Assembly: GCA_001880285.1 (NCBI GenBank)
Contig: CP016269.1
Location: forward strand, 248,001 to 312,000
Length of the DNA stretch: 64,000 nucleotides
From: Flavobacteriaceae bacterium UJ101
GTDB taxonomy: Bacteria; Bacteroidota; Bacteroidia; Flavobacteriales; UJ101
Direction: 5' to 3'
Under the pieces are notes generated by a model. The model was not told where the DNA came from, did not search any database, and saw only the letters and a list, made by a program, of their open reading frames with translations. The position numbers and the translations under genes are program-made. Shown piece by piece: positions 19,459 through 27,675 of this stretch (position 1 is its first letter; each line of letters starts with the position of its first letter).

Positions 19459-19489
19459 TTGGTTTTTTCGTGTATAAAATCTATATTCG
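19459..19489 (+). promoter_or_regulatory. Putative promoter of the sulfite reduction operon
   Basis: TTG (19459-19461), a 20-base spacer and TATATTCG (19482-19489), which differs from TAnnTTTG by one base. Transcription would start near 19495 and leave a leader of about 430 bases before the first full-size gene. Confidence 0.5.
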
Positions 19490-19567
19490 CATCAAATGTT
19501 TCAAACAAAATCACATAATATTCAATTAAATTTTCTTTCAAATAAAGGGAATGTAACTTCATATACT

Positions 19568-19621
19568 ATGATGAACAGTACTTGTATGTGTTGTCAAACG
19601 CATCTGCTGTGCTGTATATAA
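19568..19621 (+). CDS. Cysteine-rich leader peptide 1 of the sulfur operon
   Basis: A 17-codon frame, MMNSTCMCCQTHLLCCI, holds five Cys codons: TGT at 19583, 19589 and 19592, TGC at 19610 and TGT at 19613. It lies upstream of a strong terminator and of genes that make sulfide for cysteine synthesis. Seen: the frame, the Cys clusters and the terminator. Inferred: it senses charged tRNA-Cys by ribosome stalling, as in classical amino-acid attenuators. Translation could also start at the second ATG (19571). Confidence 0.65.
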   Translation: MMNSTCMCCQTHLLCCI

Positions 19622-19682
19622 AGTTTAAAGAGAACGAACAAATTATATAAATCCAGCACTAAAATTAGTGTTGGATTTTTTT
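19609..19682 (+). promoter_or_regulatory. Putative transcription attenuator (antiterminator and terminator)
   Basis: The terminator is a stem of about 13 bp (19649-19662 with 19665-19678, one G-U pair) with a T-run to 19682. GTGCTG at 19609-19614, inside the late Cys codons of leader peptide 1, is the exact complement of CAGCAC (19654-19659) in the 5' arm of the terminator. Next to it TATATA (19615-19620) can pair with TATATA/TTATATAA at 19643-19650. A ribosome stalled at the early Cys codons (19583-19594) would leave GTGCTG free and block the terminator. A ribosome reaching the stop would cover it. This is the expected logic for induction by cysteine shortage, inferred from pairing only. Confidence 0.6.
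19649..19682 (+). terminator. Intrinsic terminator in the sulfur operon leader
   Basis: Long stem with a single G-U pair followed by seven Ts, located between the two leader reading frames and not after any full-size gene. Confidence 0.85.
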
Positions 19683-19704
19683 ATTAATATAGAAATCAAA
19701 AGAT

Positions 19705-19836
19705 ATGGAATCTTCGCATTCGAAAACAAATCAGAAAAGGCGTGATCAAAATCACTTCAAAACCCTACTATCTAAATCTATTACTACTTTCAATACTTCT
19801 TCTCGAATGTTTTGTTGCAGCTGCTGTTGCTGTTAA
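19705..19836 (+). CDS. Cysteine-rich leader peptide 2 (ends CCSCCCC)
   Basis: A 43-codon frame ends in RMFCCSCCCC, with six Cys codons in the last seven positions (TGT TGC AGC TGC TGT TGC TGT, 19813-19833). Starting at the internal ATG at 19807 the peptide would be only nine residues. So dense a Cys run in front of sulfur assimilation genes argues for a sensing peptide rather than an enzyme. No second terminator is visible between it and the next gene at 19928, so any control here would be at translation or by another factor. Confidence 0.55.
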   Translation: MESSHSKTNQKRRDQNHFKTLLSKSITTFNTSSRMFCCSCCCC

Positions 19837-19927
19837 TTTCCCTTTTACCATAATACTTTTTACATAATAAATAAATCAATCAAAATTAGAGTAGGTTGAT
19901 ACACCTCCTCATATACCAAATTAAAAA

Positions 19928-20212
19928 ATGACGATAACACAAATGTTTGTAAATCCATTATTTAGAAAAAATAAATTAAAAAACTTTGAACAGGACAAAG
20001 CCTCAGAAACACCCATTCGAAGTGTTCTAAAATCATTCAGCTGGCGCGCAATCGGTACATTAGATACCATTCTCATTTCATGGTTTGTAACAGGTAAACC
20101 TGAGTTGGCCTTGTCCATTGGTTCAATAGAATTATTTTCTAAAATGATTCTCTACTTTTTTCATGAAAGAATTTGGAACCAAGTAAAATGGGGAAAGCAA
20201 AAAACGGATTAG
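19928..20212 (+). CDS. DUF2061 small membrane protein
   Basis: 94 residues. The DUF2061 core is seen from about residue 34: SFSWRAIGTLDTILISWFVTG, a membrane helix, then a second helix and the end HERIWNQVKW. Proteins of this family often sit beside sulfate or sulfite assimilation genes, and here it is the first full gene of the sulfite reductase operon. A role in sulfur-anion transport or a membrane step has been guessed from such context; the sequence does not prove it. 60 bases separate it from the reductase gene. Confidence 0.8.
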   Translation: MTITQMFVNPLFRKNKLKNFEQDKASETPIRSVLKSFSWRAIGTLDTILISWFVTGKPELALSIGSIELFSKMILYFFHERIWNQVKWGKQKTD

Positions 20213-22390: not shown

Positions 22391-23212
22391 ATGAAAAAAA
22401 ATAGAATCCCAAAATTAACCGTAATTGGTGCTGGCCCCGGTGATCCAGACTTAATTACTTTGAAAGCTTTTAAAACTTTAGCCTCAGCCAATGTTGTTTT
22501 GTATGATGCTTTAGTTAACGAAGAATTGTTAAAACATGCTCCTGATGCAATCAAAATTTTTGTTGGAAAACGTTTTGGAAAACATTATTGTAAACAAAAT
22601 CATATAAACGAATTGATTGTTAAAAATGCCTTAGAATACGGTCATGTAGTTCGTTTAAAAGGTGGTGATCCTTTCATTTTTGGTCGTGGATCTGAGGAAA
22701 TTCAGTATGCTGATTCTTTTGGTATTGAGACTCAAATTATTTCAGGAATTTCTTCTTCAAGTGCTGTTCCTGCCAGTATTGGAATTCCCTTAACACATAG
22801 ACGCGTTGCTGAAAGTTTTTGGGTTATTACCGGAACTACCCAAAATCATAAATTAAGTAAAGATGTTTATCTAGCAGCTGAATCAACTGCTACTGTAGTT
22901 ATTTTAATGGGGATGAATAAAATCAATCAAATTGTTTCTATTTTTGAAAATGCAGGCAAAAAAGATACACCCGTAGCCATTATACAAAACGGAACTCGAA
23001 AAGATGAAAAAGTAGGCATTGGCACGGTTGAAACCATTATTGATGAAGTACATGCTAAACAACTATCAAGCCCAGCTATTATAATCATTGGTGATGTAGT
23101 AAAAGAAAGTGTTCAATTGAAATCTTTTTATCAAAATTTCACTGAAGTCCACAAAGAAAACATAAAACCTCACCCAACTATTATCAAAAAAACCCAGTAT
23201 CCAACATACTAA
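22391..23212 (+). CDS. cobA: Uroporphyrinogen-III C-methyltransferase
   Basis: SAM-dependent enzyme that methylates uroporphyrinogen III twice to precorrin-2, the first step to siroheme. Motifs: GAGPGDPDLITLKA (residues 13-26), LKGGDPFIFGRGSEE, and the ITGTT block. 273 residues is the normal single-domain SUMT length; the oxidase/chelatase part of CysG is a separate gene just downstream. It starts 21 bases after the reductase gene, in the same operon. Confidence 0.93.
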   Translation: MKKNRIPKLTVIGAGPGDPDLITLKAFKTLASANVVLYDALVNEELLKHAPDAIKIFVGKRFGKHYCKQNHINELIVKNALEYGHVVRLKGGDPFIFGRGSEEIQYADSFGIETQIISGISSSSAVPASIGIPLTHRRVAESFWVITGTTQNHKLSKDVYLAAESTATVVILMGMNKINQIVSIFENAGKKDTPVAIIQNGTRKDEKVGIGTVETIIDEVHAKQLSSPAIIIIGDVVKESVQLKSFYQNFTEVHKENIKPHPTIIKKTQYPTY

Positions 23213-23226
23213 AATACACTAGTAAA

Positions 23227-23796
23227 ATGAACGAATTATATCCGATATTCTTAAAAGTACATCAACTCCATGTTTTAATTGTTGGAGGTGGTTTTGTTGG
23301 ACATGAGAAACTTTTTTTTTTATTAAAATCAAGTCCCAATGCTCAAGTAACAGTCGTAGCTAAAGAATTTGGTAAAGATTTACTAGAATTAGTTGAAGGA
23401 AAAAAAACAATCCAATTAATTCAAGATACTTACCATCCTGATTACTTAAAAAACAAACAATTGGTTATTGGTGCTACTAATTTTGAAGAAATTAATCATC
23501 AAATCTATCATGATGCCAAAAAACAAAACATTTTAGTCAATATAGCCGACACACCTGATTATTGTGATTTTTATTTAGGTGGAATTGTAACCAAAGGAAA
23601 TGTAAAACTCGCTATCTCAACAAATGGGAAATCCCCAACGATGGCTAAACGTTTGCGTCAATTCTTTGAAGATGTAATCCCTGAAGACATTAATGAATTA
23701 GCTGAGAATCTGAACCATTATCGTAAAACACTTCGTGATGATTTTGAACATAAAGTTCAAGAATTGAATAAAATCACGAAACAATTGATTAATTAA
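23227..23796 (+). CDS. Precorrin-2 dehydrogenase / siroheme ferrochelatase (Met8/CysG N-terminal type)
   Basis: 189 residues with the Rossmann glycine motif VGGGFVGHEK near residue 19 and the block ISTNGKSPTMAKRLR typical of Met8/CysG. It oxidises precorrin-2 to sirohydrochlorin with NAD and inserts iron to give siroheme for the reductase two genes upstream. At this length it holds both activities in the known family members. 14 bases separate it from cobA. Confidence 0.9.
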   Translation: MNELYPIFLKVHQLHVLIVGGGFVGHEKLFFLLKSSPNAQVTVVAKEFGKDLLELVEGKKTIQLIQDTYHPDYLKNKQLVIGATNFEEINHQIYHDAKKQNILVNIADTPDYCDFYLGGIVTKGNVKLAISTNGKSPTMAKRLRQFFEDVIPEDINELAENLNHYRKTLRDDFEHKVQELNKITKQLIN

Positions 23797-23870: not shown

Positions 23871-24923
23871 ATGATTAAAACAGATATTCTTATTATTGGA
23901 GCAGGCCCTGTAGGGATGTTTGCTGTATTTGAAGCTGGCTTATTAAAATTAAAATGTCATCTAATTGATGCTTTGCCACAACCAGGAGGACAATGTTCTG
24001 AAATATATCCTAAAAAACCCATCTATGATATTCCTGCTTATCCAGAAATTTTGGCAGGTGATCTTATCGATCAATTAGCAGAGCAAATTAAACCTTTTCA
24101 ACCAGGTTATACCTTGGGTGAGCGTGCTGAAACAATTGATAAATTAGAAGATGGAACTTTCAAAGTAACAACGAATAAGGGAACAGAACATTTTGCACCC
24201 GTTGTTGTAATTGCTGGTGGATTAGGTTCTTTTGAACCTCGAAAACCACCTATTCCTAATTTAGTTGATTTCGAAGATAAAGGAGTAGAATACATTATTA
24301 AAGATCCTGAAATCTACCGCAATAAGCGTGTAGTAATCTCTGGAGGAGGTGATTCTGCCTTAGATTGGTCAATTTATTTAGCTAATGTTGCAAAAGAGGT
24401 ATCATTAGTACATCGAAGAAGTGAATTTAGAGGAGCTCTAGACTCTGTTGAAAAAGTAGCTGAATTAGCTGAAGAAGGAAAAATCAACCTTATTACTGAA
24501 GCAGAAGTTAAAGAAATCCATGGAAATGGAAAAGTAGAATCTGTTCTAATCAAACATAAAAAGAAAGGTGATATTACCGTAGAAACAGATCATTTTATAC
24601 CTCTATTTGGATTAGCTCCTAAATTAGGTCCTATCGCTAACTGGGGGTTAGAAATTGAGAAAAACGCAATAAAAGTAAACAATGCACTCGATTATCAAAC
24701 CAATATTCCAGGAATCTTTGCTATTGGAGATGTTAATACCTATCCAGGTAAACTTAAATTAATTTTATGTGGATTCCATGAAGCGGCTATTATGATCCAA
24801 TATGCTTATAATATCATCAATCCAGAAAAGCGTTACGTGATGAAATACACAACGGTTAACGGTGTTGAAGGATTTGATGGAGAGAAAAAAGAAGCAAAAA
24901 AAGCCGTTGTTAAATCGATTTAA
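23871..24923 (+). CDS. Ferredoxin-NADP reductase (thioredoxin reductase-like type)
   Basis: 350-residue flavoprotein with the FAD motif GAGPVGMFA (residues 10-18), the NADPH motif SGGGDSALDW and the C-terminal FAD block GIFAIGDVNTYPGK. The redox CxxC of thioredoxin reductase is absent, and the CSEIYPKKPIYDIPAYP segment matches the YumC/type 2 FNR group. It should pass electrons from NADPH to ferredoxin. Being next to a 2Fe-2S ferredoxin and downstream of sulfite reductase, it is the likely electron source for that enzyme. Confidence 0.9.
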   Translation: MIKTDILIIGAGPVGMFAVFEAGLLKLKCHLIDALPQPGGQCSEIYPKKPIYDIPAYPEILAGDLIDQLAEQIKPFQPGYTLGERAETIDKLEDGTFKVTTNKGTEHFAPVVVIAGGLGSFEPRKPPIPNLVDFEDKGVEYIIKDPEIYRNKRVVISGGGDSALDWSIYLANVAKEVSLVHRRSEFRGALDSVEKVAELAEEGKINLITEAEVKEIHGNGKVESVLIKHKKKGDITVETDHFIPLFGLAPKLGPIANWGLEIEKNAIKVNNALDYQTNIPGIFAIGDVNTYPGKLKLILCGFHEAAIMIQYAYNIINPEKRYVMKYTTVNGVEGFDGEKKEAKKAVVKSI

Positions 24924-24941: not shown

Positions 24942-25268
24942 ATGTCAGAATCTATAATCAACGTAAAAGTTATTGATCGAGAAGGAGTTGAACATACTTT
25001 AGAAGCTCCTACCGATATGAATATGAATTTAATGGAACTGTGTAAGGCTTATGAATTACCGGTTGAAGGTACTTGTGGAGGAATGGCCATGTGTGCTTCT
25101 TGCCAAGTTTATGTTCAGTCAGGTCACGACCTTCCTGAAATGAGTGAAGATGAAGAAGATATGTTAGATCAGGCCTTTAATGTAGAAGATAACAGTCGTT
25201 TAGGTTGCCAGATTTATTTAAAAGATGAATTAGATGGTTTAACTGTAGAACTGGCTCCTGAAGCGTAA
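24942..25268 (+). CDS. 2Fe-2S ferredoxin (adrenodoxin-like)
   Basis: 108 residues. The cluster ligands are C45, C51, C54 (TCGGMAMCASC) and C89 (LGCQI), the spacing of vertebrate/bacterial type adrenodoxin-like ferredoxins. The protein is acidic (SEDEEDM) as expected for an electron carrier docking to a reductase. It follows the ferredoxin reductase by 18 bases and ends the operon, before a bidirectional terminator. Confidence 0.92.
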   Translation: MSESIINVKVIDREGVEHTLEAPTDMNMNLMELCKAYELPVEGTCGGMAMCASCQVYVQSGHDLPEMSEDEEDMLDQAFNVEDNSRLGCQIYLKDELDGLTVELAPEA

Positions 25269-26019: not shown

Positions 26020-27675
26020 TTAAGAAGCACTAAAAGCTTCCGGATCTTCTAAAACATGATAACGTGGATCATCAATATCTTCTATAATAATTTCAGCAAA
26101 TTTAGGATTTGCTTTATTCAATAAAAACTTACATTCTTCACTCAAATGTTTTAGTTTTACTGACTTACCAATTGCTTCATATTTATTTACAATTCCACGT
26201 ACCGCTTCTATAGCCGAATGATCTGCTACTTTACTTTCAATAAAATCGATTTCTATAGTATCTGGATCTCCTTTTACATCAAATTTTGTATTAAAATCAG
26301 TAATAGAACCAAAAAATAGAGGTCCCCAAATTTCATATACTTTTGTCCCATCTTCTTTTAAAGACTTACGAGCTCGAATACGTTTTGCATTTTCCCATGA
26401 AAAAACCAACGCACTAATAATAACCCCTGCAATAACAGCAACAGCTAAATCTTGCCATACAGTTATGGCTGATACCAAAATAATTACCAAGGCATCGGTT
26501 ACTGGAATTTTATTCAAAATACGAAAACTAGACCATGCAAAAGTTCCTATTACTACCATAAACATTACTCCTACTAATGCTGCTATTGGTACTTGCTCGA
26601 TATATTGTGATCCAAAAAGGATAAAAAACAATAGTCCTAATGCTGCTACAATTCCTGACAAACGACCACGACCACCTGATTTTATATTGATAATGGATTG
26701 TCCTATCATAGCACAACCACCCATTCCTCCAAAAAGACCATTTAAAATATTCGCACTTCCTTGTGCTAAACATTCACGGTTTCCATTTCCACGTGTTTCG
26801 GTTAAATCATCAATTAAGTTTAATGTCATCAATGATTCAATTAAACCAATTGCAGCTAAAATTGCCGCATAAGGTAATATAATCTTCAGTGTTTTAAAAT
26901 TCCATAAGGAAGCATTGGTAAACAAATCAAACTGAAATGATGGTAACAAATCTAAAAAGCCACCTCGTTCACTTAGGGGAACTCCTCCTCCATCTTTAAT
27001 AAACGAGCCCACTGTATCTACATCTAATCCCCCAAAAATCACAATAGCTGAAACAATTAAGATGGCAATTAATGCTTCAGGAACTTTTTTTGTAATTCTA
27101 GGAAGTCCAACCATGATGAACATTGTTAAAGCAACCAAACCTATCATTAAAAATAAATCATTTCCTTGTAACCATTGTTTTGTAGCCTCGCCTGTTATTG
27201 GGTCCGTCGCCATTTTTTTAAACATTCCCAATTGAGACAGAAATATTACAATAGCTAAACCATTTACAAACCCCATCATTACAGGATGTGGAATTAGACG
27301 AACAAACTTCCCTAATTTAAAGACACCTGCAAATATTTGAATCAAACCTGCAAAAAGTAATGTTACAAACAAAAATTGTAGTCCTAGCTCTCCTACTCCT
27401 TTTTCTATACCATAGGTATTTCCTTCTCTTACTAAATTAACCATTACCACAGCCATAGCTCCTGTCGCTCCTGATATCATCCCTGGTCTTCCACCAAAAA
27501 TTGAGGTAACAATTCCCATCATAAAAGCTCCATATAATCCAATTAAAGGATCGATTCCTGCTACAAAAGCAAAAGCTACTGCTTCAGGTACTAATGCTAA
27601 AGCTACTGTGATTCCAGAAAGAATATCATCTTTAGCATTGGCGACTTTTTTTGTTATAAGTTTAAATTCTGCCAT
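26020..27675 (-). CDS. SulP family anion transporter
   Basis: 551 residues. The N-terminal half has about 12-14 membrane segments with the SulP signature ALVPEAVAFAFVAGIDPLIGLYGAF near residue 25 and GGRPGMISGATGA. A C-terminal STAS domain follows from about residue 440. SulP proteins carry sulfate, bicarbonate or other anions. Its placement a few hundred bases from the sulfite reductase operon makes sulfate plausible, but bicarbonate transporters share this architecture. It has its own promoter. Confidence 0.88.
   Translation of the reverse strand: MAEFKLITKKVANAKDDILSGITVALALVPEAVAFAFVAGIDPLIGLYGAFMMGIVTSIFGGRPGMISGATGAMAVVMVNLVREGNTYGIEKGVGELGLQFLFVTLLFAGLIQIFAGVFKLGKFVRLIPHPVMMGFVNGLAIVIFLSQLGMFKKMATDPITGEATKQWLQGNDLFLMIGLVALTMFIMVGLPRITKKVPEALIAILIVSAIVIFGGLDVDTVGSFIKDGGGVPLSERGGFLDLLPSFQFDLFTNASLWNFKTLKIILPYAAILAAIGLIESLMTLNLIDDLTETRGNGNRECLAQGSANILNGLFGGMGGCAMIGQSIINIKSGGRGRLSGIVAALGLLFFILFGSQYIEQVPIAALVGVMFMVVIGTFAWSSFRILNKIPVTDALVIILVSAITVWQDLAVAVIAGVIISALVFSWENAKRIRARKSLKEDGTKVYEIWGPLFFGSITDFNTKFDVKGDPDTIEIDFIESKVADHSAIEAVRGIVNKYEAIGKSVKLKHLSEECKFLLNKANPKFAEIIIEDIDDPRYHVLEDPEAFSAS

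Follow-up and report, generated by a model that had tools for sequence, protein, structure and literature searches.

A short cysteine-rich frame (ORF1) and the intrinsic terminator behind it, which precede a sulfite-reduction operon of Flavobacteriaceae bacterium UJ101, very probably act together as a transcription attenuator of the classical, ribosome-mediated kind, with charged tRNA-Cys as the signal. As predicted from the sequence, the switch most likely lets the sulfur genes be transcribed only under cysteine scarcity, and putative switches of like design turned up ahead of sulfur genes in many other Bacteroidota families. The features of the window, by which we mean the whole analyzed stretch of 64,000 nucleotides, are collected in Table 1. 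The operon is made up of genes for sulfite reduction and for its sirohaem and electron supply. A SulP-type sulfate permease gene adjoins the operon on the opposite strand (26020–27675) and has no Cys leader; none was found at a second DUF2061-cysD-cysN-like cluster of the host (L110/L111, about 346–348 kb).

Table 1. Features of the leader and the operon (positions in the window)
Feature	Position	Strand	Remarks
Promoter-like site, Bacteroidota type	19459–19489	+	TTG-N-TATATTCG, relaxed match to TTG-N17-23-TAnnTTTG
Leader ORF1	19568–19621	+	MMNSTCMCCQTHLLCCI; 17 codons plus stop, five Cys codons
Possible 1:2 hairpin across early and late Cys codons	19575–19615	+	Minimum-free-energy fold of the window
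Antiterminator 5' strand	19609–19621	+	GUGCUGUAUAUAA; begins 14 nt past Cys codon 9
Antiterminator 3' strand	19643–19659	+	UUAUAUA (19643–19649) and CAGCAC (19654–19659); overlaps terminator 5' arm
Intrinsic terminator and T tail	19649–19682	+	13-pair stem 19649–19678, -15.9 kcal/mol
Leader ORF2	19705–19836	+	43 aa; ends MFCCSCCCC-stop; Cys codons 19813–19833; behind terminator
G-free stretch, 56 nt, at ORF2 stop codon	19833–19888	+	Possible Rho loading site
DUF2061 membrane protein, first operon gene	19928–20212	+	Pfam PF09834
Sulfite/nitrite reductase family hemoprotein, 698 aa	20273–22369	+	Pfam PF01077/PF03460
Tetrapyrrole methylase, CobA-like, sirohaem synthesis	22391–23212	+	PF00590
Sirohaem synthase N-terminal type dehydrogenase, MET8-like	23227–23796	+	PF13241/PF14824
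FAD pyridine-nucleotide oxidoreductase, ferredoxin-NADP reductase-like	23871–24923	+	PF07992
2Fe-2S ferredoxin	24942–25268	+	PF00111

The Cys residues of ORF1 are encoded by codons 6, 8, 9, 15, and 16, with the first cluster at 19583–19594 and the second pair at 19610–19615; the proportion of five in 17 codons compares with a Cys content of 0.6% in large ORFs. When Cys-dense small ORFs (sORFs) were defined as intergenic frames with at least four Cys in 10 codons, only ORF1 and a second frame, ORF2, were found in the window. A further 1.24 Mb of the host genome contained few others, and in each case the next same-strand large ORF was at least 824 nt away. The initial annotation had described a 17-codon frame with five Cys codons followed by a strong terminator, and both were confirmed. 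It had also pointed out the complementarity of GTGCTG (19609–19614) and CAGCAC (19654–19659). This pairing was found as described, but its extent had been understated, because the adjoining TATATAA (19615–19621) also pairs with TTATATA (19643–19649). The antiterminator comprises 13 pairs with a 4-nt bulge and surpasses those of shuffled sequences (p = 0.020). The ORF1 leader region is also predicted to fold much more stably than shuffles (z = -4.1, 0 of 200 shuffles).

For each ribosome position, the uncovered RNA was folded with and without the 3' arm of the terminator. Before the 3' arm exists, the antiterminator was predicted with a probability of 0.95 for a ribosome on Cys 6, 0.84 for one on Cys 8, and 0.87 for one on Cys 9; with the ribosome on Cys 15, Cys 16, or the stop codon, it was 0. 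The ribosome-free leader gave a probability of 0.74 before the 3' arm emerges, despite the predicted 1:2 hairpin, which in a classical attenuator would favor termination of untranslated RNA. At equilibrium, the terminator won in every case in the complete leader, and read-through must therefore depend on co-transcriptional timing, that is, on a kinetic decision. The earlier proposal that the early Cys codons are placed to free GTGCTG under a stalled ribosome agrees with this folding and with the 14-nt spacing. Cys 15 and 16 fall within the antiterminator strand, an arrangement uncommon among the relatives. We infer a transcription start, the translation of ORF1, and a response to cysteine, which would operate as follows. 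When cysteine is ample, the ribosome would pass codons 6–9 and cover GUGCUGUAUAUAA, and the terminator would form ahead of the operon. When cysteine is short, the ribosome would stall at Cys 6, 8, or 9 and leave GUGCUGUAUAUAA exposed, so that it could base-pair with the emerging 5' arm of the terminator. With the antiterminator formed, RNA polymerase would proceed to the genes for DUF2061, sulfite reductase, and the sirohaem and electron supply.

The comparison with relatives was made across the order and the class, the host's family having no second genome in the collection. Sulfite reductase was present in 95 of the 395 class genomes and 64 of the 396 order genomes. The loci that were read came from 80 class genomes outside Flavobacteriaceae, which were oriented by tblastn, from 14 genomes of Flavobacteriaceae, and from a few close genomes. 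At 98 sulfite-reductase loci of the class, 46 Cys-dense intergenic sORFs were found on the coding strand and five on the other strand, as against 1.4 expected from dinucleotide shuffles, with the Cys-density cutoff of the scan chosen after the data had been seen. The other residues mostly showed no comparable excess; the exception was Met, which was mixed with Cys. The check on Cys-codon conservation suggested in the initial annotation did not give the refuting outcome: about 15 other families have Cys-dense leaders ahead of this operon (examples are CCCTMTMCCCNCCC, MMCCMMCCC, MCMCMCMCCC, and CCCCCCC-stop). The leader sequences cannot be aligned between families; what is kept is the architecture. 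Three of the leader calls (L132, L169, and L191) look doubtful and lack a terminator.

An intrinsic terminator following the sORF stop was found for 29 distinct leaders from 22 genomes and 13 families, the window included, and it started 20 to 57 nt past the stop (median, 26). In 20 of the 29, the strongest pairing of leader RNA with the terminator's 5' arm beat shuffles at p < 0.05 (combined p about 1e-20, a value that is too small since related genomes are counted as independent). The control, gene-end terminators of the same loci, reached p < 0.05 in 2 of 58, with a median p of 0.50. The arm sequences are wholly different between many families, and the three-way complementarity is maintained. 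Measured from the last Cys codon of the first cluster, the antiterminator strand begins 7–15 nt downstream in 27 of the 29 leaders (14 nt in the window), compared with 14% of shuffles and 22% when shuffling was limited to the part after the Cys codons; the 7–15 nt range was fixed after inspection of the data. This is roughly as far downstream as a ribosome stalled at that Cys codon would reach. The sequence itself shows the frame and its terminator, the alternative pairing, and the spacing suited to a ribosome, as well as their recurrence among relatives, and the comparison supports, as a strong prediction, the classical attenuator layout for cysteine that had been claimed for this leader.

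Three other explanations of ORF1 and its terminator were weighed against this reading. The Cys-dense frames might encode genuine small cysteine-rich proteins (metal-binding, redox, or modified peptides), with the terminator being incidental. Some leaders share an N-terminal sequence within a family (f15 ORF-A), and ORF2 is as long as 43 aa. However, ORF2 has no Pfam match, neither ORF1 nor ORF2 matches NCBIfam, and only the Cys (and Met) codons recur between families. The fixed spacing to an antiterminator and terminator would moreover be needless for the function of a protein, and we consider this explanation very unlikely.

Riboswitches are common at sulfur genes, and the terminator could be governed by a riboswitch or a protein-binding RNA without sensing by a ribosome, a possibility to which the strong structure of the leader (z = -4.1) lends itself. 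Against it, Rfam gave no match up to an E value of 1 in the window region and none at the gathering level in the leaders of 13 relatives. No aptamer-like sequence is held in common; what recurs instead is Cys codons at a fixed distance, which makes such control highly improbable. A frame lying by accident close to a terminator that belongs to the upstream gene is the least credible origin: short frames occur often, and only 230 nt separate the end of the upstream gene (19416) from the terminator, but chance is already contradicted by the 46 Cys-dense frames seen against 1.4 expected and by the gene-end terminators of the same loci, which show no antiterminator excess.

In addition to the ORF1 attenuator, the leader contains ORF2, a Cys-dense frame absent from the initial annotation, which has no terminator of its own and is reached by transcription only after read-through of the ORF1 terminator. 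Its poly-Cys run (CCSCCCC-stop) adjoins the stop codon 92 nt ahead of the DUF2061 gene, a trait of the actinobacterial poly-Cys leaders. Cys leader peptides precede cys operons in Actinobacteria without conserved terminator hairpins (PMC1262725), and poly-Cys leaders are described for mycobacteria (Canestrari 2020, as cited in PMC9031893 and PMC13236596). ORF2 resembles these in its run of Cys codons at the stop before cysteine genes, whereas ORF1 differs from them in possessing a terminator and an antiterminator. The mycobacterial form has a leaderless translation start, whereas ORF2 would be preceded by about 210 nt of the expected transcript. Frames of the ORF2 type, with Cys codons at the stop and no terminator, were also seen in f15 ORF-A, L136, L137, and L201 and ahead of cobA in L164, L165, L184, and L185. 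The gaps after ORF2-type leaders are rich in C relative to G (median, 0.65, versus 0.52 for other upstream regions; p = 2e-5). In the host, a G-free stretch as long as the one at the ORF2 stop codon occurs upstream of about 3% of the genes.

Judging by where it lies and by the scarcity of G in its 3' flank, we guess that ORF2 probably checks cysteine a second time, once the terminator has been read through, and would do so via Rho or via translation of the next gene. The G-free stretch weakly suggests Rho loading at the ORF2 stop once the ribosome is gone. Translational attenuation like that of the mycobacterial poly-Cys leaders is about as likely for ORF2 as Rho, and we regard it as a serious possibility of somewhat less than even probability. 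It is favored by the poly-Cys run adjoining the stop and the lack of a terminator, as in Actinobacteria (PMC1262725; Canestrari 2020, via PMC9031893 and PMC13236596), and by f15, where pairing is possible between the ORF-A poly-Cys codons and the region around the ORF-B start (p = 0.04–0.14). In the window, however, the pairing between the poly-Cys codons and the next gene is weak (p = 0.076) and ends 23 nt before the start, most other ORF2-type loci show no such pairing, and the ORF2 region has no more structure than chance would give (z = +0.5). As a general property of terminator-less leaders, pairing of the poly-Cys codons with the next gene start does not hold; f15 alone is suggestive.

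The promoter-like site of the window meets only the relaxed pattern. The strict Bacteroidota promoter pattern was found upstream of 21 of 39 leaders, compared with 1.6% of mononucleotide shuffles. The gene for an Rrf2 regulator is common at leaderless loci and nearly absent from leader-bearing ones: two loci had both, 34 had a leader only, 27 had Rrf2 only, and 36 had neither, so that leader and Rrf2 rarely share a locus (p = 4e-5, phylogeny not corrected for). A first scan of the Flavobacteriaceae loci found no Cys leaders, because those operons mostly start with an Rrf2 gene.

The trp and his leaders of enterobacteria are the classical amino-acid attenuators. Like them, the ORF1 leader has a short frame in which codons for the product amino acid abound, an antiterminator just past the stall codons, and, upstream of the operon, an intrinsic terminator; it differs in the amino acid (cysteine), the phylum, and the presence of a second Cys-dense frame in series. 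In Rhodobacterales, the uORFC-8-2 motif ahead of cysS has been predicted to work by ribosome-mediated attenuation (PMC8632094). It shares with ORF1 the use of Cys codons together with an intrinsic terminator; uORFC-8-2 has two tandem Cys codons and precedes a tRNA synthetase gene in Alphaproteobacteria (PMC8632094), whereas the Cys clusters described here are longer and belong to sulfur-reduction operons. The window region has no Rfam match, which would count as a difference only if the motif is in Rfam. Tandem attenuators in a long leader with two short frames control transcription into the Salmonella mgtCBR operon (PMC3641672). Two short frames in one leader are likewise present in the window; the mgtCBR leader is not one for cysteine biosynthesis, whereas both window frames are Cys-dense. 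A transcriptome study of Flavobacterium psychrophilum reported leader-peptide attenuation of amino-acid operons, with cysteine unnamed in the main text (PMC9723704). In the main texts of the open-access papers that we searched, no cysteine attenuator was reported for Bacteroidota, and within this scope the earlier statement that no case is known from this phylum stands. Devices of this kind have been described before; their use for cysteine in Bacteroidota, how widely they occur, and their tandem arrangement seem to be novel.

We tentatively propose, at a little under an even chance, that Bacteroidota without Rrf2 at the operon use class-wide cysteine (perhaps also methionine) attenuators, often two in series. 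The window would then combine an intrinsic-terminator attenuator with a poly-Cys-stop leader acting via Rho or translation, making a two-step cysteine check on one transcript. If true, this proposal would supply a regulator of sulfur assimilation in many Bacteroidota without an apparent one and would account for the absence of the Rrf2 gene from leader-bearing operons. It would also offer 29 comparable natural attenuators in which the distance between the stall codon and the antiterminator can be measured, and an unannotated class of Cys-dense leader frames is brought to notice.

Several further arrangements were observed in the relatives. Met-dense intergenic sORFs numbered 24, with 0 expected, and Met and Cys were mixed in the leaders of L195, L196, L198, L202, L207, and L209; methionine may therefore be sensed as well. 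In L113, L166, L167, L170, and L211, one operon is preceded by two full Cys attenuators arranged in series, both of which have a terminator of their own. A Cys-dense frame without a terminator (e.g., YEYCCCC and MRCCCCCCCKYK) lies between the sulfite reductase gene and cobA, 54–82 nt before the latter, in L164, L165, L180, L184, and L185. Cys leaders were also seen upstream of sulfite reductase ahead of a homoserine dehydrogenase-like gene (f21; L139, L146, and L148) and ahead of a peroxiredoxin-like gene (f52; L159 and L174), both named from the start of the sequence only.
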